Shown: piece by piece, positions 43,510-54,704 of the stretch | Position numbering within the stretch: the first letter of the stretch is position 1 | Layout: every line of letters begins with the position of its first letter | Assembly (NCBI GenBank): GCA_937927515.1 | Contig: CALBDO010000013.1 | Span: forward strand, 1 to 64,000 | Reading direction: 5' to 3' | DNA: 64,000 bases | Origin: Candidatus Kapaibacterium sp. | GTDB lineage: Bacteria > Bacteroidota > Ignavibacteria > Kapaibacteriales > UBA2268 | The notes under the pieces: model-generated | Told to the model about the DNA's origin: nothing | The model's input: only the letters and a program-made list of their open reading frames with translations | Databases searched by the model: none | Program-made: the position numbers and the translations under genes

Positions 43510-45057
43510 TTAACATTTATGAAGATTCCGATGCATTATTCTTCTTGACTCAATAAGCCTCTCTTCTTCTGGAAGCGAAATTAGTCTTTGGTTTAGGTCT
43601 TTGTCGTTTTCAGCAAGTAGAAAGTTTGCATAGTAGTCGATAACTTCTGGAGGGAAGATGCCGTCTCGCTCGTAATGATGTCGTTTTTGCAGAAGTTTCT
43701 CTGCAGATTCGACACAACTTTTACCTAATACTTCAAAGTTTTTTTGAAGGCTATGAGGTTCGTCTGTAATTTTATACTTTTCTGCAATTTGTAAAGAGCG
43801 CTCGGGATTGTTTAATCCCCATTCAATAGCAAGGGTGATTCCAGCAAGTATAAGATGAATCAAAGCGCTTCCATCTGGGCTTCGAAACTCTATGGTTTGC
43901 CGGGATTCGCTGTATTCAATTTCATCAGTTTCGTGTGGATTAATCTGCTTGGCTATGTTGTTTGTCTTGGACCAGGACAATGGTATTCTTATTAATGAGC
44001 TACGGTTTGAAGGACTCCAACAAACTTTTGTTGGAGCTTCTTGACCAGGTACTAAACGCAAATAAGAAGCTGCAACCGTATTTCCAAAAGCAGTCAAACT
44101 TGGTGCATAATGACATAACCCTCCGATTGCCATCAAAGCTTCTTTTGAAAGCTCGCCAGTGTCATCCAGGGTAATGTTTTTTCCATCTTTGACGAGTGCA
44201 ATGTGAAAGTGCAATCCATTCCCAGCGTGTCCAGGGTCTACTTTTGGAAAGAAAGTTGCAATGCAATTGTTTTGATAAGCTACGTTTCGAATAATCCAAG
44301 CGGAAAGAACCAAATAATACGCTAAATCCTCGATATCAGTTAACTGAAATTCAATTTCCATTTGCTCGGCTGTTTTACCATTTAGCTCTGGTATCTCGCT
44401 TTGTATGTTTTCTATGTATCCAACCTCGTTGTGGCAATACTTAACGGTATTTGTAATTTTGGCAATCAATGATGTCATCTCATTCAAGATTTGTAAAGCC
44501 TTGGAAAATGGGGGACTACTATGATAGCCTTGCTGTTTACTAAGCAAATACATCTTTTTAGGTAAATCAAAGATTAAGTAAAATTCCAGTTCACCCAGTG
44601 CTCTCAAATCGAACCCAGTTTTAATTTTGAAATAATTCTTTGCTTTTGCTAATATACCATCAGGGGTGAAATTAGCTGGATTCCCTTCATAATCGAAGAA
44701 CCTACAAAAGAAATCTAAACTTTTACTATCAAAAGGATTAAGAAATGCGGTCCGATAAATTGGAACAACATACAAATCAGAAAAGCCCACCTTGACAATA
44801 CCTTTGAAAAGCGAAGAGCCGTCCACTCTTTCTCCGTCGGCGAGTACACTTTCGAGTTGTTTTTTGTTTTGAATCGGAATTTGCATCTGACGAGGTTTAC
44901 CATCGATTGCTACATAATGAAATGTAATTCTCTCAAGACCAATGGATTGGATTACTTTGATAAAGTCTTTTCTTGTCCATAATTCTTTAGGTTTACCAGT
45001 TAGAAGTGTAATTGGATTTTCAAGAGCAAAACATAAATTTGTATTTTTCATGACCAT
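43510..45057 (-). CDS. Glutamine synthetase family protein (type I)
   Basis: Glutamine synthetases make glutamine from glutamate and ammonia using ATP. This protein is 515 residues, longer than typical GlnA. The N-terminal beta-grasp region (VDGSSLFKG, DLYVVPIY) and catalytic motifs are intact: GELEFYLIF (metal ligands), NGLHFHIAL, NRSSLIRIP and TIEFRSPDGSALIHL. The adenylylation loop NLYDLP of classical GS-I beta is not evident. I therefore call it a GlnA-type synthetase, with gamma-glutamylation of another amine a possible alternative. It heads a two-gene unit with the rhomboid and is divergent from the signalling operon, with a 64-base gap. Confidence 0.88.
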   Translation of the reverse strand: MVMKNTNLCFALENPITLLTGKPKELWTRKDFIKVIQSIGLERITFHYVAIDGKPRQMQIPIQNKKQLESVLADGERVDGSSLFKGIVKVGFSDLYVVPIYRTAFLNPFDSKSLDFFCRFFDYEGNPANFTPDGILAKAKNYFKIKTGFDLRALGELEFYLIFDLPKKMYLLSKQQGYHSSPPFSKALQILNEMTSLIAKITNTVKYCHNEVGYIENIQSEIPELNGKTAEQMEIEFQLTDIEDLAYYLVLSAWIIRNVAYQNNCIATFFPKVDPGHAGNGLHFHIALVKDGKNITLDDTGELSKEALMAIGGLCHYAPSLTAFGNTVAASYLRLVPGQEAPTKVCWSPSNRSSLIRIPLSWSKTNNIAKQINPHETDEIEYSESRQTIEFRSPDGSALIHLILAGITLAIEWGLNNPERSLQIAEKYKITDEPHSLQKNFEVLGKSCVESAEKLLQKRHHYERDGIFPPEVIDYYANFLLAENDKDLNQRLISLPEEERLIESRRIMHRNLHKC

Positions 45058-45121: not shown

Positions 45122-45499
45122 ATGGATTTGTTTGCTATTCGAGAATATTGTCTTTCGAAGCCCTTTTCAAAAGAAGATTTACCTTTCGACGAGGATACCC
45201 TTGTCTTTAAAGTTTTCGGACGAATGTTTGCTTTGTTGGATATTTCTTCAAATCCACTTTGGATAAACTTAAAAGCGAACCCAGAGGATGTAGTTGAACT
45301 TTGTGAAAGATTCGATTTCATCCGCCCAGGTTATCATATGAACAAAAAGTATTGGATTACAGTAGAGATTGTGAACGAGATTTGCGATGCTTTTTTATTT
45401 GAATTGATAGACAATTCTTATTTGGAGGTTACTAAAAAGCTTCCAAAATATCAACGTGAAATAATTAACAAGGCTATAGAAAATGGCAATTTCAAATGA
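45122..45499 (+). CDS. MmcQ/YjbR family protein
   Basis: The 125-residue protein has the compact double-wing fold of the MmcQ/YjbR family, with the pattern FGRMFALLDI, WINLKANPED, FDFIRPGYHMNKKYWITVEI. Members are small cytoplasmic proteins, sometimes described as DNA-binding-like, but no biochemical role is firmly established. It is the first gene of an apparent six-gene operon; its 3' end overlaps the kinase-like gene by 17 bases. This makes it a candidate regulator or accessory protein of that unit. Confidence 0.85.
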   Translation: MDLFAIREYCLSKPFSKEDLPFDEDTLVFKVFGRMFALLDISSNPLWINLKANPEDVVELCERFDFIRPGYHMNKKYWITVEIVNEICDAFLFELIDNSYLEVTKKLPKYQREIINKAIENGNFK

Positions 45500-46496
45500 T
45501 AAGGAAATACTTGTTGAGAGAATAAAAGAACTTGTAGGTTGGAATGTAAATCCCGCGAGGCTCAAAATTCATATCGATACAACCGATTGGATGAGAATTG
45601 TCCGTGGGGATATAATTAGATTATCCTGTGGCGATTATCTTGTAAAGGGTAACATGCGGGAGCCAAGATTTGGCATCGATGACCAACCAAAGTACTGGGT
45701 TTTTAGTGCGGTGGACCTTCGGGATGGTAGCGAGAAAATTGTTAAAACAGTATTTCACGAGGAATTTTATGCGCACATTGGTATATTGAGAATTCGTTGT
45801 TATCGAAATCCAGTCAAGGAAGGCGAGGTATTAAAATTGGTGAAAGGGGATAATAGATTTATGCAAGGGTTTGTTTGTAACGACACAATGGGGAATGCAG
45901 TTAGAGTAGTTGATTTCATAAAGGGAAAATCGTTCTTTCAGTATATTCCTCTTATTGAGAAAAGCCACGAAGAATATTTTTACGAAGACTTGCCAAATAT
46001 TTTGTGGAAATTAAGAGAATCTTTTTTAGCAATTCAATTTCTCCACGAAAATAGGTTCTGTCATGGGGATATACGAAACGACCATATAATTGTGGAGTCT
46101 GGAACGGGAACCTATCGTTGGATTGATTTCGACCTTATGCAAGATGTCTCGGATTTTGATTTGTGGAGTTGTGGAAACATACTTTCCTATGCGGTAGCGA
46201 AAGGATTGAAGACATTCGACCAAGTTTTAAAAGGCAGCGAATTCAGTGATAAAGTGAAGTTAAGTTTGACCGCAGAGGATGCCTCTGCTTTCTATAACTA
46301 TAGAATAATGAATTTAAAAAAGTTATATCCTTATATTCCAATAAAACTAAATAATATCCTTCTTCATTTTACGATAAAGCCAATAGAATATTATGGTTCT
46401 GTTAAAGAGTTTATAGAGGATTACTCCGAAATGTTGGAGGCAACTTTTCCTATGGTAGCAACAGATTCCAAAGAAAGCAATGGTAGTGCAAAATGA
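45483..46496 (+). CDS. Kinase-fold protein (Ser/Thr kinase- or aminoglycoside kinase-like)
   Basis: The 337-residue protein has the C-lobe hallmarks of the protein kinase-like fold: a catalytic loop CHGDIRNDHIIVE (H194-G-D196) and a metal-binding loop WIDFDL (D215-F-D). These replace HRD...N and DFG of classical kinases, so the closest relatives may be atypical or APH/Rio-type kinases. An N-lobe lysine candidate lies in KIVKTVFHEE; I cannot confirm it. It is probably cytoplasmic. Its stop overlaps the histidine kinase start (ATGA), strongly suggesting coupled translation and a joint role in signalling. Confidence 0.8.
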   Translation: MAISNDKEILVERIKELVGWNVNPARLKIHIDTTDWMRIVRGDIIRLSCGDYLVKGNMREPRFGIDDQPKYWVFSAVDLRDGSEKIVKTVFHEEFYAHIGILRIRCYRNPVKEGEVLKLVKGDNRFMQGFVCNDTMGNAVRVVDFIKGKSFFQYIPLIEKSHEEYFYEDLPNILWKLRESFLAIQFLHENRFCHGDIRNDHIIVESGTGTYRWIDFDLMQDVSDFDLWSCGNILSYAVAKGLKTFDQVLKGSEFSDKVKLSLTAEDASAFYNYRIMNLKKLYPYIPIKLNNILLHFTIKPIEYYGSVKEFIEDYSEMLEATFPMVATDSKESNGSAK

Positions 46497-48328
46497 AAGC
46501 TATTATTATCGGTGGTGGCAAGGGTTGTTACGCTATTTTGAAGTTGCTTCGAGAGCGACCGATAAAAGAACTCAATTTGCAAGTTGTTGCTGTTGTTGAT
46601 ACAAATCCAAATGCAGAAGGATTTCGCTATGCAAATGAATTAGGATTGCTTACCTTCTTTGATTACAAAGAGGCTTTAAAGTTACCCGATATAGAGGTAA
46701 TTATAGAATTGACTGGAGATGATGAATTTGTCAGACGATTAAAAAAAGAATTGACCCCAGAGATAAAATTAATTGAACACTCAATTGCTCATATATTTTG
46801 GGATTTAATGTATGCACACGAAGAGCTCGACACTAAAATCCGTGACTTAGAACGACTCGAGAAAATCGTTGAAGATGACAACGTGTTTTTGAAGTCTATC
46901 TTCGACAGTTTTCAAGACTTAGCAGTGGTGATGGATGGTGAGCATCGAATAACAAGAGCAAACAAATCTTTTTGCGATTTCGTTGGTATGGAAGAAAAAC
47001 AAATTATTGGGAAATCTTGTTGCGAAGTTTTGGAAAATACAGTTTTGGGATGCGATAAAAATGAAAGAAAAAATATTGACAATTGTATTTACCAAACACA
47101 TAAACCATATTTCATGATATATGTATCACCACCACCACAAGAGACTTACTGGGAAGTGACACACTCTCCAATTTTCGACTCGAAAGGTAATGTTAAATAC
47201 ATACTTACAAATTGGCATAAAATTACCGAGCTTGTATACTTAAAGAGGGAAGTTGAAACACTCGAACAGAAACTTAAAAGCTTTATCAACAATGCTCAAG
47301 ATTGGATTAGTATGAAAAATCTTAATGGCGAGTATATACTTGTAAATCCAGTCATTGCAAAGGCTTTTGGAAAAAAGCCAGAAGATTTTATAGGTAAAAG
47401 ACCAGAGGATGTCCTCCCACCAAAAATTTCTCAAACGGTAAAACTTCATGATGCAGAAGTTCTTAGAACTGGAAAGCCAATGTTATACAACGAAACAATT
47501 ATGCTTAATGGCGAAGAACATTATTTTCGAATGCTTCGCTTTCCTTTAACAGATAGCCAAGGAAAAGTCATTGGAACCTGTACTATCGGAAGGGATGCCA
47601 CAAATGAAGTCCATTTAATGGAAAAATTGATTCAAAGCGAAAAACTTGCTGCTTTGGGTAAACTTGCTGCTGGTGTTGCCCATGAAATTAATAACCCTTT
47701 GACTGGTATACTTTCGTACGCCGAAAGTATTTCCGAAGAGCTGGACAAAAACCATCCTCTACAAGAAGACATAGCGATAATCATTCGCGAGACTCTTCGG
47801 TGTAGGGATATAGTCAGAAATTTATTAGATTTTGCAAAGCAATACACTCCCAAATTTGAAGTAGTGGACCCAAATTTTATAATTCAACAGTCTTTAGATT
47901 TGGTTCGCCGTCTGCCCCAATTTAAAGACATAGAAATCAAAGTAAATCTTGCCGAAAAGATTCCAAAGATAAAAGCTGATGTCAAGCAAATTCAGCAAGT
48001 AATATTAAACTTTTTAATAAATGCTGCCGATGCAATGAAGTACAGAGGCGAAATAATTATTTCAAGTGAGTACTATCGTCAACAAAAGAAATGTATTATT
48101 TCGGTGGAGGACTCCGGTCCCGGTATACCAGAAAATCTTATGGATAAAATATTCGAGCCGTTCTTTTCCACTAAAAGCACAAGTGGGCTTGGACTTGCGG
48201 TAAGTTGGGGTATAATTGAAAGACATCACGGAACAATCGAAGTGGACACTGCTAGTTCTGGGGGTGCAATATTTAAAATTGTTCTTCCCGCTTATTTTGA
48301 GCTAGAAGGAAATGAGTTGGAGTTATAA
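46493..48328 (+). CDS. Sensor histidine kinase with Rossmann-like N-terminus and two PAS domains
   Basis: The 611-residue protein lacks a signal peptide and membrane helices, so it is a soluble sensor. Residues 1-~110 begin KAIIIGGGKGCYAILKLL and continue VVAVVDTNPNAEGFRYA, a dinucleotide-binding-like Rossmann pattern. PAS domains follow at ~145-265 (FQDLAVVMDGEHRITRANKS) and ~270-385 (DWISMKNLNGEYILVNP). The HisKA phosphoacceptor is His397 in AHEINNPLTG. The HATPase has NFLINAADAM, DSGPGIPE and GLGLAVSWG (N, G1, G2 boxes). It sits between the kinase-like gene and the response regulator and is probably its cognate kinase. Confidence 0.9.
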   Translation: MKAIIIGGGKGCYAILKLLRERPIKELNLQVVAVVDTNPNAEGFRYANELGLLTFFDYKEALKLPDIEVIIELTGDDEFVRRLKKELTPEIKLIEHSIAHIFWDLMYAHEELDTKIRDLERLEKIVEDDNVFLKSIFDSFQDLAVVMDGEHRITRANKSFCDFVGMEEKQIIGKSCCEVLENTVLGCDKNERKNIDNCIYQTHKPYFMIYVSPPPQETYWEVTHSPIFDSKGNVKYILTNWHKITELVYLKREVETLEQKLKSFINNAQDWISMKNLNGEYILVNPVIAKAFGKKPEDFIGKRPEDVLPPKISQTVKLHDAEVLRTGKPMLYNETIMLNGEEHYFRMLRFPLTDSQGKVIGTCTIGRDATNEVHLMEKLIQSEKLAALGKLAAGVAHEINNPLTGILSYAESISEELDKNHPLQEDIAIIIRETLRCRDIVRNLLDFAKQYTPKFEVVDPNFIIQQSLDLVRRLPQFKDIEIKVNLAEKIPKIKADVKQIQQVILNFLINAADAMKYRGEIIISSEYYRQQKKCIISVEDSGPGIPENLMDKIFEPFFSTKSTSGLGLAVSWGIIERHHGTIEVDTASSGGAIFKIVLPAYFELEGNELEL

Positions 48329-48330
48329 AT

Positions 48331-49107
48331 ATGCTCAATGACAAAGTCAAAATTTTGGTGATTGATGATGAACAAATCATATTAGATAGCATAAAAAGGA
48401 TTTTAAAAAAAGAAGAAGCCTACGAAGTGGAAACCGCTTTATCAGCCCAGGAGGCTTTGCAAAAGCTTCCAGTTTTTTTGCCAAATATCATTCTTACAGA
48501 TTTAATGATGCCCGAAATTGATGGTTTAGAACTGCTTAAAAAAGTGAAAGAAATTAACGACAAAATTTTTGTAATTATGATTACTGGTTATGCAACTATT
48601 AATACCGCTTTGCAAGCAATGCAACTTGGTGCTTTTGATTATATCGCTAAACCATTTACACGCGATGAACTCCGCAAAGTGATAGAGCGAGCCGCAAGTT
48701 TAGTTTCTGCCCAGACAAATAGCGAAGGTAAGTCCCCATTGCAAAATGAAATAATAAGCAACATTCAGGGTATAGGTCAGTATTCCTGGCTTATGATGAA
48801 TGACGAGGGTTTAGTTGTTTTAGGGGTAGAAAGGGCTGTGTTATACTCGGTAGGCAAGATTCAAACTGTTTACTTGCCTTCAGTTGGAGATGAGATTCGC
48901 CAAGGAAGTGTCTACTTTCAGATATTTTCCTCCGACTTAAGAACACAATCTATTTTCTCTCCCCTTTCTGGAATTGTTGTAGAAGTCAATGAAAAAGTAT
49001 TAGAAAATCCTGAAATTGCTGTCTTAGACCCCTATGGAGAGGGATGGCTTTTGAAAATAAAGCCTTACAATTTTGAGGAAGATATGAAAACTTTAGGACT
49101 GCTTTAG
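48331..49107 (+). CDS. Response regulator fused to a degenerate GcvH-like domain
   Basis: The N-terminal ~120 residues are a normal receiver domain: acidic pair D12-D13, phosphoacceptor Asp57 in LTDLMMPEIDG, and TGYATINTALQAM, with Lys in YIAKPFT. After a short linker, residues ~145-258 resemble glycine-cleavage H protein (YLPSVGDEIRQGSVYF, SPLSGIVVEVNE, DPYGEGWLLKIKP). The lysine that carries lipoate in GcvH (ESVKAAS) is replaced; the aligned segment reads SSDLRTQS, with Leu203 at that site. There is no DNA-binding domain. It follows the histidine kinase by 2 bases, so it is likely its partner. Confidence 0.9.
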   Translation: MLNDKVKILVIDDEQIILDSIKRILKKEEAYEVETALSAQEALQKLPVFLPNIILTDLMMPEIDGLELLKKVKEINDKIFVIMITGYATINTALQAMQLGAFDYIAKPFTRDELRKVIERAASLVSAQTNSEGKSPLQNEIISNIQGIGQYSWLMMNDEGLVVLGVERAVLYSVGKIQTVYLPSVGDEIRQGSVYFQIFSSDLRTQSIFSPLSGIVVEVNEKVLENPEIAVLDPYGEGWLLKIKPYNFEEDMKTLGLL

Positions 49108-49110
49108 AAA

Positions 49111-50157
49111 ATGAAAGAAGCTCTTCTGTATGAAAACATTGATAGCGACACGAAAGAGGTAATCTGCAAACTTTGTAGTCATTATTGTAAAATTAAAAAC
49201 GCTCGTGGTGGAATTTGTCGGGTGCGCTTCAACCATGATGGTACCTTGTTCTCGTACACATATGGTAAAGTCGATGGATTTGCCGTCGACCCAATAGAAA
49301 AAAAGCCATTTTACCATTTCAAACCAAAGTCTAGAGTTTTATCTTTTGGTACCCCTGGTTGCAATTTTAAATGTGCCAATTGCCAAAATAGTTACCTTTC
49401 CCAATCAATAAAATTAAAGCCCGAAGCATTGCTAACTCAAAATGTTTTTCCGCCAGAGAGAGTTGTGGAGTTGGCAGAAAAATACGCCGTGGATGGAATT
49501 TCTTATACCTACTCCGAACCTACGATTTTTTTTGAATATGCAAGAGACATAATTTTAAAGTGCAAGCAAAATAATAATACTAAACATCTTTTTCATGTAT
49601 TTGTTTCGAATGGCTATTTTAGCAAAGAAATGTTTGAAATTGTAAAAGCAGAAAAATTATTAGATGCTATTAACATAGATTTGAAGTTTTTTGATGACCA
49701 AAAATATTTAAAGATTACCGGTGGACATCTCAAGCCTGTTTTAGAAAATATTGAAAGAGTTTTCGACGCAAATATACATATGGAAATTATCAACTTAGTT
49801 ATTCCTGGTGAAAATGACAATGAAGAGAGCTTTGCAAGAGTGTCGGAGTTCGTTTCCAGTCTTTCAAAGGATATCCCTCTTCATTTTAGTAGGTTCTTTC
49901 CACAGTACAAAATGACAGACAAATCCTCAACTCCATATAAAACTCTTTTGTTCGCAAGGGACATAGCGAAAAGTTTTGGTCTTAATTATGTTTACATTGG
50001 AAATACCGATTTAATTGACGCAGAAAACACACATTGTCCTAAGTGTAATTATTTGGTAATCCAAAGACAAAGGTACTTCACCGATGTTAGGTATTTAGAT
50101 TTGGAAGGAAAAGCTGTATGCCCAAATTGCAAAGAAACTTTGCCAATTATTGTGTAG
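49111..50157 (+). CDS. amrS: AmmeMemoRadiSam-type radical SAM enzyme
   Basis: The 348-residue protein has a [4Fe-4S] motif GCNFKCANC (Cys84, Cys88, Cys91), spaced CxxxCxxC as in radical SAM enzymes, with upstream cysteines in CKLCSHYCKI and GGICRVRF. The order of motifs (VDGFAVDPIEKKPFYHF; SFGTPGC; GISYTYSEPTIFFEYARD) matches the AmrS family. A C-terminal CPKC...CPNC pair forms a probable zinc ribbon. The partners AmrA and AmrB (AMMECR1 and MEMO) are not in the window. It lies 3 bases after the response regulator gene. Confidence 0.9.
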   Translation: MKEALLYENIDSDTKEVICKLCSHYCKIKNARGGICRVRFNHDGTLFSYTYGKVDGFAVDPIEKKPFYHFKPKSRVLSFGTPGCNFKCANCQNSYLSQSIKLKPEALLTQNVFPPERVVELAEKYAVDGISYTYSEPTIFFEYARDIILKCKQNNNTKHLFHVFVSNGYFSKEMFEIVKAEKLLDAINIDLKFFDDQKYLKITGGHLKPVLENIERVFDANIHMEIINLVIPGENDNEESFARVSEFVSSLSKDIPLHFSRFFPQYKMTDKSSTPYKTLLFARDIAKSFGLNYVYIGNTDLIDAENTHCPKCNYLVIQRQRYFTDVRYLDLEGKAVCPNCKETLPIIV

Positions 50158-51302
50158 TTAGCTTGTTTGTTTTCTTTTGGTCTCTTCTGCCGCCAAAAGT
50201 TTTATCCCAATGGCCAGTAATGAAAACTGATGCGGATAGTTTAGTGCGAATGGGTGCCGACTACATCTACAATATGGAATTCGATAGTGCAGAGATTTGT
50301 TTCAAAACTGTAATCCAAAAATATCCTCAGTTGCCAGCTGGCTATTTTCTTGATGCAATGGTAGATTGGTGGAAGATTAATTCTTTTAGGAACTCTCGGG
50401 ATTACGACAGGAGCTTTTTAGACAAAATCGACAAAGTCATCAAGGTGTGTGATGGGATTCTGGATACAAATGAATTTGAAATAAGTGCATTATTTTTTAA
50501 AGGCGGAGCGTTAGGATATCGGGGTAGGTTTCACGTGGTACGAGAGAACTGGTTTCGAGCTGCAAGCGATGGCTATACAGCATTTAAGATACTTCTGAAG
50601 TGTTTGGAGATTGCACCAAACAACTACGACATCATGTTGGGTACTGGTATTTACAATTACTTTGCAGAGGTTCTACCAGAGCAAAATCCATCCATTAAGC
50701 CCCTGATGCTTTTTGTGCCAAAAGGTGATAGAAAACTTGGCATTTTGCAACTGAAAGCTTCTGCTAAATATTCACGTTATGCAAAAGTCGAGGCTATGTT
50801 GGTTTTGCTTCAAATTTATTACGATTTTGAAAAGGATTATTACTCTGCGTATGAATTAGCCAAGGAATTGGTTCAAAAATATCCAAATAATCCTTTGTTC
50901 CAGCGTTACTATGGTAGATGTCTTGTTTCATTATATTACCTTGATGAATGGGAACAGCATTGGAGAAAAATCCTTGATTGGTGCAATCAAAAGAAAATTG
51001 GGTTTGATTTATTAACAGCCCGCGAAGCTCTTTACTACATTGGGAGTGCATTATTCGAAAAAAACCAATTTGATGAAGCTTTACAATATTTTTACAAATG
51101 TGATGAGTTCTCGCGTAAACTTGATAAGGATGGACCTTCTGCTTTTATGATTTATTTAAATCTTAAAGTTGGTAAGATTTACGATTTACAAGGGAAGCGC
51201 CAATATGCAATTATGCAATACAACAAAGTCCTTTCATGGAAAAATTATCGAGACTCCCACGAACAAGCCAAAAAGTATCTTCAATCTCCATTTACCCGTT
51301 AA
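50118..51302 (+). CDS. Secreted TPR-like protein
   Basis: This 394-residue protein has an N-terminal signal peptide (CVVSLFVFFWSLLPPKVLSQ). The rest is helical with TPR-like repeats, for example YNMEFDSAEICFKTVIQKYPQ, YYSAYELAKELVQKYPN and QFDEALQYFYKCDEF. TPR domains mediate protein-protein contacts. It overlaps the end of the radical SAM gene by 40 bases and is the last gene of the operon. Exported TPR proteins are common in this lineage, so its inclusion in the signalling function is uncertain. Confidence 0.75.
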   Translation: MPKLQRNFANYCVVSLFVFFWSLLPPKVLSQWPVMKTDADSLVRMGADYIYNMEFDSAEICFKTVIQKYPQLPAGYFLDAMVDWWKINSFRNSRDYDRSFLDKIDKVIKVCDGILDTNEFEISALFFKGGALGYRGRFHVVRENWFRAASDGYTAFKILLKCLEIAPNNYDIMLGTGIYNYFAEVLPEQNPSIKPLMLFVPKGDRKLGILQLKASAKYSRYAKVEAMLVLLQIYYDFEKDYYSAYELAKELVQKYPNNPLFQRYYGRCLVSLYYLDEWEQHWRKILDWCNQKKIGFDLLTAREALYYIGSALFEKNQFDEALQYFYKCDEFSRKLDKDGPSAFMIYLNLKVGKIYDLQGKRQYAIMQYNKVLSWKNYRDSHEQAKKYLQSPFTR

Positions 51303-51339: not shown

Positions 51340-52554
51340 ATGTCGAAGTCTTTTATTTTTGTCGTTTTTTTCATACTTGCGTCTGTTATACCATATTTTT
51401 GCCCAGCGCAATCCAAACTACTCTTGGGTATTGATGTTTTGATTAAAGATGATTTTAAGATTTTGCAAGGGAAAAGAGTAGGTTTAGTGGCAAATTCCGC
51501 CAGTCGTACCAGCACGCAGAAAATGACAGTGGAGTATTTTGTCCACAATCCAAACTTTACATTAACCGCAATTTTTACTCCTGAACATGGGTTTTTTACG
51601 ACAATTCCAGCTGGAGAGAGTGTTCCCGATGATAGCATCTATGGTGTCCCTCTTTTTTCACTGTATGGAAACAACCGAAAGCCGACTCCCTATCAATTGT
51701 CTTTGGTTGATATTATTGTTTTCGATTTACAGGATATTGGTGTTCGTTCTTATACTTATATAAGCACACTTTTCAAAGTTATGGAAGCTTGTGCAGAATT
51801 TGACATTCCTCTTGTTATCTTGGATAGGCCAAACCCTCTCGGAGGCAATCTTGTCGATGGTAATGTTACAGATTGGGAGAAAATTTCATTCGTAAGTATC
51901 ATTCCCATACCATATCTTCATGGATGTACAATAGGAGAGATAGCTTTAATGATAAACGGTGAGGGTTGGCTGAAGAGCAATGGAACCACAAGAAAGTGTA
52001 ACTTAACTATTGTGAAAATGGAGGGTTGGAAAAGGGATTTCAAATGGGAACAAACTGGTTTAAATTGGTTCCAAACATCCCCCAACGTGAAAACTACTAA
52101 ATCTATACGGGGTCTTGCATTTTTGGGTCCCATTGGTGAACTTTCTTTATTTAATTTAGGCGTAGGTACACAAAATCCATTCCAAAAGTTTGAAGTTCAC
52201 AATGTTAACAGTCGAAAATTAGATAGTTTAATAACGAGTTTAAAATTTGATGGTATTGTTTTTCGAAAAACTGCAAAAAAAAATTCTTATTTCATTGATT
52301 TTGAAGCCAATGCTGATGCTAAACTTTACACCTACGGAATGTTGTTGCTTTTAGAAACTTGGAAAAATTTCCCACATCTTTTCAAATTAGAACGAATAAA
52401 AACTAAATCCATCGAAATGTTTAAAAAAGTTACTGGAACAGATACTCTCTGGCAATGTTTGCTGGATGGAAATGAAAAAAAATTTAAAAGTGCCTTGAAT
52501 AAAGGATTGGATGAGTTTCTTTTAATTCGTTCGAAATATCTTATGTATAAATAA
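51340..52554 (+). CDS. NamZ-like exo-beta-N-acetylmuramidase (DUF1343)
   Basis: DUF1343 proteins include NamZ enzymes that release N-acetylmuramic acid from the ends of peptidoglycan fragments. The 404-residue protein has a signal peptide (to about CPAQS) and the family core: GKRVGLVANSAS, IFTPEHGFF (candidate catalytic Glu), DIIVFDLQDIGVRSYTYIST and LDRPNPLGG. It would act in the periplasm. It is followed 8 bases later by the heparinase-like gene. The family name namZ is a homology guess and the substrate is not proven here. Confidence 0.88.
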   Translation: MSKSFIFVVFFILASVIPYFCPAQSKLLLGIDVLIKDDFKILQGKRVGLVANSASRTSTQKMTVEYFVHNPNFTLTAIFTPEHGFFTTIPAGESVPDDSIYGVPLFSLYGNNRKPTPYQLSLVDIIVFDLQDIGVRSYTYISTLFKVMEACAEFDIPLVILDRPNPLGGNLVDGNVTDWEKISFVSIIPIPYLHGCTIGEIALMINGEGWLKSNGTTRKCNLTIVKMEGWKRDFKWEQTGLNWFQTSPNVKTTKSIRGLAFLGPIGELSLFNLGVGTQNPFQKFEVHNVNSRKLDSLITSLKFDGIVFRKTAKKNSYFIDFEANADAKLYTYGMLLLLETWKNFPHLFKLERIKTKSIEMFKKVTGTDTLWQCLLDGNEKKFKSALNKGLDEFLLIRSKYLMYK

Positions 52555-52562
52555 GGTGGAAA

Positions 52563-54704
52563 TTGGCAAAGGTTTGGCAATTCTTCCGAATTCCTTTGAA
52601 TATATCTTTAAGGAAATTTGTTGGCTTTTTTAAAAGAAATATTTTGTCAGTTAAAAAATCACCAATATTATTTTATGAAGATAAAGAAACTCTTGATAAA
52701 TATTCAATACGTAAGTTGAATTTTGGTTTTTTCAACCTACCACCAATCGATTTCCTTTTAGAAAAAGACGAGCTTTTGGATTACCTATCCGAACAAATTT
52801 TAAAGCACAATTTCAATTTATTAGGTACTGGTTGGGTCTGTCGAAATTTTGAAAAAAGTCGAGATGAAATTAAAAACTTATTGCCGGATTTCTATAAGAA
52901 GAAATTCGAAATTCTAACAAGCAAAATTACAAACCCAGAATACCAACATATAAACTTTTGGAGCGAACCCAAAACTGGCTTTGAGTGGGAGCCCAAATAT
53001 TTTAAAGAAACTGAAATTCTTCTTGGTAAAGATATAAAGTATCCTTGGGAACTTGGTAGGATGCAACATTTGCCATTTCTCGCCATTAGTTATAGTTACA
53101 ATTTGATTAAGGATGCTGAATATGCAAAAAAATTGGCAGAAGAGTTCCAAAATCAAGTGCTCGATTTCATTTCAACGAATCCCGTGGCTTATTCCGTCCA
53201 GTGGCGTTCAACAATGGATGTTTCCATTCGGCTTGTAAATTGGCTTGTTGCCTACGATTTGTTTATGCTTGCTGGTTGGAATTTTGAGAAATCTTTTTAC
53301 GAGATTTTTTGCAATAGCATCATACAGCATATTTTATTCATATTAAATAACTTGGAATGGTCCGAGGGCTTGAGAGGTAATCATTATTTTGCAAATGTCG
53401 CCTCTCTCATTTTTGCCGGTGTTTACCTGCCAACAAGTGAATTGTCAATACAAATACTAGCTTTTGCTTTGAGCGAGCTTTACAAAGAGACATTACACCA
53501 ATTTCTACCCGACGGTGGTAATTTTGAAGCATCTACTTACTATCACATCCAGGTAGTGGAAATGCTACTTTTTTCTTTGTACATTCTGAATTTTGTGACT
53601 AAAGATAAATTAATCGCCCTCAAAAATTTTGTTCACAATCGTAAAAGGCTGACACTAGGTAACAAAACAACAACTAAATTTAATTTTTCAATCGATGAAA
53701 ATCTTTTGAAAATAGATTTTCCAGGTGACTTCTACGAAAGGATTTTTAAAATTATTAAATTCACCAATTTGATTAAGAAAAGTAATGATGAATATGAACA
53801 GATAGGAGATAACGACAGCGGTATTTTCCTCCGATTGAATTATTTTTTTGAAAATTTCGCCTTTGAGAATGAAATGTATGAAAACTTGTTAAAAAGATAC
53901 TTATTAGATGACTTGATTTCTTCTCTGTCGGTTGGTGGCTCAAATCGGCAATACTATTTCTTGAAAGATAAGAAAATGCATCAACTTTATTTGCCTTCAA
54001 AAGAAATTACAATATTTCCAAAATTATACTCTTGTACTCACTTCGGATTATATATTGTCAAGTCTCTTAATTTTGAACTTTTCGTTCGCTGTGGTGATAT
54101 TGGTCAGATGGGAAAAGGTGGACATTCTCATAACGACCAACTTTCTATTACTTTAAATGCAAGAAGCAAAGACTTTTTTGTCGACCCAGGGCTGTTTTGT
54201 TACACTTGTTCGGAAGAAGAAAGGAATAAGTATCGTTCCGTACATTTCCACAACACACTTGTCTTGAAATCTTGTGAACAAAATCTGTGGAAGACAGGCG
54301 ATGTTGACAATCTATTTTGGATTTACAAACATAGAACCAAATCTAAAGTAGTATTTCAGTCCGAAGACAAATTGATATTTGAGCATTATGCATATGGCAT
54401 ACCACATCGTAGGACAATAATTTACCATATTAATAAAGTAGAAATTATTGATTTCCTTAATTCGAATGCAGAAAAATTCATTTATTTCCATTTGCATCCA
54501 ACAGTGATAGTTGAGCGAAAATCTGAATCTTTCATTCTGGTGAACGAGGAGGTAACCGTGGAACTATCAACAGATTGCAAGAACTATGAAATTCAAACCT
54601 ACCATTACTCTCCTCAGTATGGCTTGAAGATACCATCACGTAGGATGGTATTTACCACGACCGAGGAATGCATACATTTTTCTATCAGCATTCAACAAGA
54701 ATAA
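52563..54704 (+). CDS. Heparinase II/III-family protein
   Basis: The 713-residue protein has the two-part layout of polysaccharide lyases of the heparinase II/III type: an alpha-helical toroid in the first half (EWEPKYF, MDVSIRLVNWLVAYDLF, GLRGNHYFANVASLIF) and a beta-sandwich in the second (GHSHNDQLSITL, FVDPGLFCYT). The motif YYHIQVVEMLLF and the HSHND segment hold candidate catalytic Tyr/His residues. No signal peptide is obvious. It may degrade or trim a uronic-acid polymer. It starts with TTG at 52563, preceded by AAGGTGG. A terminator follows the stop directly. Confidence 0.85.
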   Translation: MAKVWQFFRIPLNISLRKFVGFFKRNILSVKKSPILFYEDKETLDKYSIRKLNFGFFNLPPIDFLLEKDELLDYLSEQILKHNFNLLGTGWVCRNFEKSRDEIKNLLPDFYKKKFEILTSKITNPEYQHINFWSEPKTGFEWEPKYFKETEILLGKDIKYPWELGRMQHLPFLAISYSYNLIKDAEYAKKLAEEFQNQVLDFISTNPVAYSVQWRSTMDVSIRLVNWLVAYDLFMLAGWNFEKSFYEIFCNSIIQHILFILNNLEWSEGLRGNHYFANVASLIFAGVYLPTSELSIQILAFALSELYKETLHQFLPDGGNFEASTYYHIQVVEMLLFSLYILNFVTKDKLIALKNFVHNRKRLTLGNKTTTKFNFSIDENLLKIDFPGDFYERIFKIIKFTNLIKKSNDEYEQIGDNDSGIFLRLNYFFENFAFENEMYENLLKRYLLDDLISSLSVGGSNRQYYFLKDKKMHQLYLPSKEITIFPKLYSCTHFGLYIVKSLNFELFVRCGDIGQMGKGGHSHNDQLSITLNARSKDFFVDPGLFCYTCSEEERNKYRSVHFHNTLVLKSCEQNLWKTGDVDNLFWIYKHRTKSKVVFQSEDKLIFEHYAYGIPHRRTIIYHINKVEIIDFLNSNAEKFIYFHLHPTVIVERKSESFILVNEEVTVELSTDCKNYEIQTYHYSPQYGLKIPSRRMVFTTTEECIHFSISIQQE

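Follow-up and report, generated by a model that had tools for sequence, protein, structure and literature searches.

Three consecutive genes of a Candidatus Kapaibacterium genome form a real and conserved module, which encodes a kinase-fold protein (B), a predicted soluble histidine kinase (C) and a response regulator (D) whose C-terminal domain resembles the glycine cleavage H-protein GcvH. They lie in a 64,000-nucleotide stretch (the window, meaning the whole of the DNA analysed), which is part of contig 13 of a 2.39 Mb genome that is 98% complete. We tentatively interpret B-C-D as a cytosolic two-component system in which the non-lipoylated H-like output of D works with the kinase B, and give this interpretation somewhat less than an even chance. 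The three genes, with starts set by the longest open reading frame (ORF) rule, are the following:

45483 to 46496, forward strand: B, kinase-fold protein of 337 amino acids, core gene 1 (Pkinase 22.9 bits; AlphaFold2 model; PknB 1o6y)
46493 to 48328, forward strand: C, Rossmann-PAS-PAS-HisKA-HATPase histidine kinase of 611 amino acids, core gene 2 (PAS at two places, HisKA, HATPase)
48331 to 49107, forward strand: D, response regulator with GcvH-like C-terminal domain, 258 amino acids, core gene 3 (Response_reg 106.4 bits, GCV_H 71.2 bits)

The order of the three genes is kept far from the window. A collection of genomes from 84,980 species was scanned with two peptide patterns of B, a search that reaches B relatives carrying either pattern and, beyond the window's family, sees C and D only where B accompanies them; 106 stretches matched and 31 loci were confirmed. 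These comprise a second copy within one genome (L079), 14 genomes of the window's family, whose records are labelled Kapaibacteria, Ignavibacteria or Bacteroidetes, and 16 loci of another group, 15 of them labelled Zixibacteria and one (L073) labelled 'FCB group' but placed inside the Zixibacteria clade on the tree. In this second group B is followed by C in the same direction at all 16 loci, and D comes next at each of the 14 whose contig continues; D is interrupted by the contig end in L068. B and C are spaced by -4 to 99 bases and C and D by -13 to 58, leaving aside L040 (C-D 356) and three values (B-C -47 in L073, C-D -170 in L070 and -44 in L072) for which the ORF start is thought to be too early. 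C has a frame break near position 4882 of L075 (3242 to 5048), either real or an assembly error, with B and D intact. Outside the window's genus, among the loci examined, B, C and D are the only genes that recur. Ten proteins flanking the Zixibacteria-type loci were scanned, one per locus from 10 loci; family matches were obtained for nine, each a different gene, and one had no match, so these ten offered no common functional hint. Quick trees of B (32 rows) and D (30 rows) each separate the two groups with 99% support in the Shimodaira-Hasegawa-like approximate likelihood ratio test.

Within the window's family the genes also occur together in genomes where they are not adjacent. Across its 54 genomes B was found in 16 and D in 17, and 14 have the Rossmann part of C; both the B set and the Rossmann set are nested within the D set. 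B-C-D is contiguous in seven genomes (G000 to G003, G015, G022 and G432), whereas C and D are adjacent without B in eight, including G010, with a 356-base gap, and G029, whose contig starts inside C. B lies on a different contig from D in nine of the 16 genomes (G004, G009, G010, G018, G024, G029, G447, G448 and G449), and both are retained in all nine. The hypergeometric probability for B within D is 8e-13 by genome and 4e-6 by genus, values uncorrected for ancestry. Among 395 genomes drawn from the phylum, two yielded B, and these belong to the window's genus.

D consists of a receiver (residues 1-120) and a GcvH-like domain at about residues 150-255; its model, with a predicted local distance difference test score (pLDDT) of 84 and a predicted template modelling score (pTM) of 0.58, has two confidently predicted domains joined by a linker of low confidence. 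The receiver passes the Pfam Response_reg cut-off, and D57, T85 and K107 are kept in 28 of 28 members of its alignment (A4), one of which is truncated before the lipoyl loop and from which the copies of G447 to G449 were excluded. The C-terminal domain matches PF01597 (GCV_H) at 71.2 bits against a cut-off of 22.2, and structures 3klr and 3ab9. D resembles the glycine cleavage H-protein in both fold and sequence (TIGR00527 63 bits, below its cut-off of 115.85; 2ka7, E 2e-14), and the segments SPLSG and DPYGEGW are conserved in most members. The lipoyl-accepting lysine was sought in residues 195-214 and was absent from all 27 members that cover the loop. D has kept the H-protein fold and lost the H-protein lipoyl site. 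The LbpA lipoate-binding proteins are described as having a strictly conserved lysine in common (PMC6067878), and D differs from them and from the H-protein in having no lysine in the lipoyl loop and in being fused to a receiver. The window genome encodes a separate GcvH, in which the lipoyl lysine was identified by eye in EAVKTV. D shares the receiver motifs of NtrC/FixJ-type regulators (FixJ 101 bits, cut-off 255) but differs from these in that Pfam found neither a sigma-54 nor a DNA-binding domain. A defence-system search with PADLOC gave two weak matches to the D receiver (residues 5-89).

B models as a divergent eukaryotic-like kinase by fold. Pkinase was matched at E<=0.01 in every one of the 31 members of its alignment (A3), and the AlphaFold2 model (pLDDT 88.2, pTM 0.86) was compared by Foldseek and VIA-align, both of which rank protein kinases, with PknB (1o6y) as the best match (Z 17.4, root-mean-square deviation 3.9 over 222 residues). 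K88, E113, D196 and D215 are kept in 31 of 31 members; we take these to be the VAIK lysine, the alpha-C glutamate, the catalytic aspartate and the DFG aspartate, roles assigned from sequence position and the model. In its fold and in these four residues B is like the Ser/Thr kinases of the PknB/PknG/Stk1 type, and it differs from them in having HGD for HRD, in lacking a membrane stretch and in being encoded beside a His-Asp pair. No tblastn match to B was found at 1e-5 among 72,556 plasmid records, and spread by plasmids was set aside. In B, PADLOC gave a single weak match (residues 172-219), and in C none; a defence-system identity for B-C-D was dropped.

C would supply the input. All 23 members of its alignment (A5) match PAS, HisKA and HATPase and keep the phospho-accepting His397; the alignment excludes the copies of L038 and L043, in which the Rossmann part is absent, the fragment in G029 and the copies of G447 to G449. 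Hydropathy gives no membrane stretch, the highest KD19 value being 1.20. C shares its HisKA-HATPase and PAS architecture with histidine kinases of the AtoS/NtrB type (best NCBIfam match AtoS, 280 bits, cut-off 646), and differs from them by having no hydrophobic membrane stretch and by an N-terminal Rossmann-like domain (residues 1-120; 46493 to 46855) with weak matches only in the Protein Data Bank (PDB). Residues G7, G9 and D36 are present in all 23 members, which were themselves chosen for carrying the domain, and GFO_IDH_MocA was matched in three of the 23. By their predicted motifs (histidine and ATPase motifs in C; receiver Asp, Thr and Lys in D) and by Pfam scores above the cut-offs, C and D are a two-component pair.

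These features suggest a route for the signal. The Rossmann-like and PAS domains of C would sense an internal cue, with NAD(P)(H) or a related compound as a possible ligand of the former; C would then autophosphorylate on His397 and pass the phosphate to Asp57 of D. Because the H-protein fold of D is kept without the lipoyl lysine, this domain would most likely be a docking surface, and B its most likely partner; with B in that role the system would convert His-Asp signalling into regulated kinase activity. We consider doubtful, as a whole, the fuller proposal that D, having no DNA-binding output, uses its lipoate-free H domain to switch a dedicated kinase B, that a redox or NAD(P)H signal is thereby carried from His-Asp to Ser/Thr phosphorylation, and that the module is ancient, common to Kapaibacteria and Zixibacteria by descent or early transfer. 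Most response regulators act via DNA-binding domains; the sole recognised output of D is a metabolic carrier domain that lacks the cofactor site, and the kinase-fold B accompanies the C-D pair even where the genes are separated. If the interpretation is true, these three predicted soluble proteins would be a dedicated bridge from two-component to Ser/Thr signalling in little-studied bacteria. No description of a receiver-GcvH protein or of the B-C-D module appeared in the titles and abstract openings of the matches listed in the open-licence literature, and the terms 'GcvH', 'glycine cleavage' and 'lipoyl' do not occur in the main text of PMC4558063 and PMC5847659.

Several observations weigh against this interpretation. 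The B of the window scores 22.9 bits with Pkinase, under the Pfam gathering cut-off of 31.7, and in 31 of 31 members H201 stands at the Mg-binding Asn position of HRDxxxxN and DFD replaces DFG, both differences from the PknB/PknG/Stk1-type kinases; with these two substitutions B might be a pseudokinase. For the Rossmann part of C, the lowest E-value in the PDB belongs to a formyltransferase (3kcq_A, 0.00096), matched over part of the domain, and an NAD-linked acetaldehyde dehydrogenase (1nvm_B, 0.0013) follows; NAD(P) binding by C is therefore a guess, and it is this weak and mixed match that would point to a redox or nucleotide input. In G004 and G018 C has no Rossmann part, which makes the Rossmann input dispensable. 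The evidence for a contact between B and D consists of their joint presence and gene order. In one genome with D (G011, 89% complete) B was not found, and C is separated from D in G009 and G011. In addition, an RpoB tree was built for 51 of the 54 genomes, the other three having no RpoB match; on it the presence of B requires six changes, as does that of D, two of those for D being forced by well-supported branches. A phylogeny-aware co-occurrence test had only two independent pairs on well-supported branches (sign test p 0.5) and thus no power. With so few forced changes the link between B and D is statistically inseparable from ancestry, and their co-occurrence reflects shared ancestry, partly or wholly.

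The same components could be wired in other ways. B might act upstream, phosphorylating C or D on Ser/Thr and so tuning the His-Asp pair, with the H-like domain contacting another target. This is unlikely in our judgement, though it has precedents in Staphylococcus aureus, where kinases of the Stk/PknB type act on some response regulators. A review describes the modification of the response regulators GraR and VraR by Ser/Thr kinases (PMC4601284), and an upstream role agrees with B being the first gene and occurring along with D; however, the same review describes the substrates of such kinases as pleiotropic, whereas B occurs in the 54 family genomes only with this pair. Less probable again is that D is a decoy H-protein, whose phosphorylation would let the H domain bind the P- or T-protein or the lipoylation enzymes and so tie the signal to glycine or one-carbon metabolism. 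The retained fold and conserved segments of D, the separate true GcvH and the glutamine synthetase neighbours found in three lineages speak for it, but it leaves B unexplained and no glycine-cleavage protein was found among the 18 flanking and neighbouring proteins scanned (10 and 8), most flanking ORFs being unscanned. We regard it as slightly more improbable still that C and D are an ordinary two-component pair and B a long-standing neighbour by accident, co-occurring by inheritance only; the powerless phylogenetic test leaves room for it, but the gene order is unchanged in two distant groups amid differing flanks, and B and D were both retained after separation in the nine genomes noted above.

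Around B-C-D, the window carries the following genes, all but the first being genus-level neighbours on the module's strand:

43510 to 45057, reverse strand: glutamine synthetase, divergent neighbour (family match)
45122 to 45499, forward strand: A, MmcQ/YjbR-family protein (YjbR 85.6 bits)
49111 to 50157, forward strand: E, AmmeMemoRadiSam-type radical S-adenosylmethionine (SAM) enzyme (TIGR04337 306.7 bits, cut-off 220)
50118 to 51302, forward strand: F, TPR protein with a hydrophobic N-terminus (TPR match)
51340 to 52554, forward strand: G, NamZ-type exo-beta-N-acetylmuramidase (family match)
52563 to 54704, forward strand: H, heparinase II/III-like protein (family match)

A sequence-only reading of this DNA had proposed that A to F form a six-gene operon. 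Recomputed ORFs and domain matches agree with it on the six same-strand genes, their order and their junctions (A-B overlap 17, B-C overlap 4, C-D gap 2, D-E gap 3 and E-F overlap 40 bases), and on the sequence half of the refutation it had named, that the homologous genes be neighbours in no other genome, they proved to be neighbours elsewhere too. The genus mates G001, G002 and G003 keep the whole row, glutamine synthetase through heparinase, with eight genes in unchanged order, and A to F are all adjacent in three of the four genus mates; in the fourth (G004) the row is split, with A, B and glutamine synthetase on one contig (L053, L113) and C to H on another (L038). In G003 two contigs (L037, L047) bear the row, probably through duplication in the assembly. 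The order kept in G001 to G003, together with the recurrence of B-C-D in Zixibacteria-labelled genomes, means that the arrangement is not due to chance. As a unit, however, the operon was drawn in the wrong place, since the same-strand run continues past F, after a gap of 37 bases to the NamZ-type gene and of 8 to the heparinase-like gene, and it is B-C-D that is found again beyond the genus. Among the loci examined, A, E, F, G and H are next to it in the window's genus only, and a six-gene pathway as the conserved unit was rejected; the three-gene module, with A, E and F as local neighbours, is well supported. The 40-base E-F overlap (50118 to 50157) has the identical length in all five genus members seen; it covers the C-terminal CxxC motif of E, and that motif alone may preserve the ATG.

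The same reading had a soluble kinase sensing a nucleotide or redox state and signalling through D to control the radical SAM step. In appearance the conserved part agrees with its soluble, Rossmann-like kinase beside a GcvH-type regulator; control of E found no support. E passes TIGR04337 as in the AmmeMemoRadiSam system, whose radical SAM enzyme usually has Memo and AMMECR1 as partners, but it lies apart from them and outside the conserved module, both domains being encoded within one 503-codon open frame on contig 10 of the window genome. AmrS-type genes occur in 15 of 17 family genomes with D (two lack one) versus six of 37 without D, an association that also counts against our interpretation; of the six genomes with the gene but no D, four (G008, G012, G025 and G433) fall in the part of the RpoB tree where 16 of the 17 D-bearing rows are placed, so that shared ancestry can explain it. 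Control of E by this system, with the YjbR and TPR proteins as further parts, is therefore very improbable despite the tight junctions, the constant order in G001 to G003 and this association, as E, A and F are beside the module in the genus only, Memo and AMMECR1 are encoded elsewhere and those four genomes have the AmrS-type gene without B or D. A second Memo-family match lies at G000:C13:75093-75950, 11 kb past the window end.

Another gene near D encodes a transposase-like protein of about 390 amino acids with an InsA-type zinc ribbon, usually single-copy, which looks domesticated. In five genomes, from four genera, it directly follows D as the next ORF on that strand; its distance from D is about 2 kb in G015 and 6 kb in G018. 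Its coordinates are:

L054:12743-13921, L055:4847-6028, L039:9889-11064, L041:3322-4467 and L046:1835-2980: zinc-ribbon protein
G000:C15:13002-14144: zinc-ribbon protein of the window genome

It was found in 31 of 54 family genomes, that is, in 17 of 17 with D and 14 of 37 without; its presence in the latter and its location elsewhere in the window's genus led us to reject it as a fourth member of the module. In the window genome it is near gcvH (L138), a closeness that is not repeated in the G002 stretch (L139). Lastly, three lineages (the window's genus, G018 and G009) have a glutamine synthetase gene no more than about 5 kb from B or D, in differing arrangements (43510 to 45057 in the window, L059:5167-6714 and L039:13348-14919), which may hint at nitrogen status.

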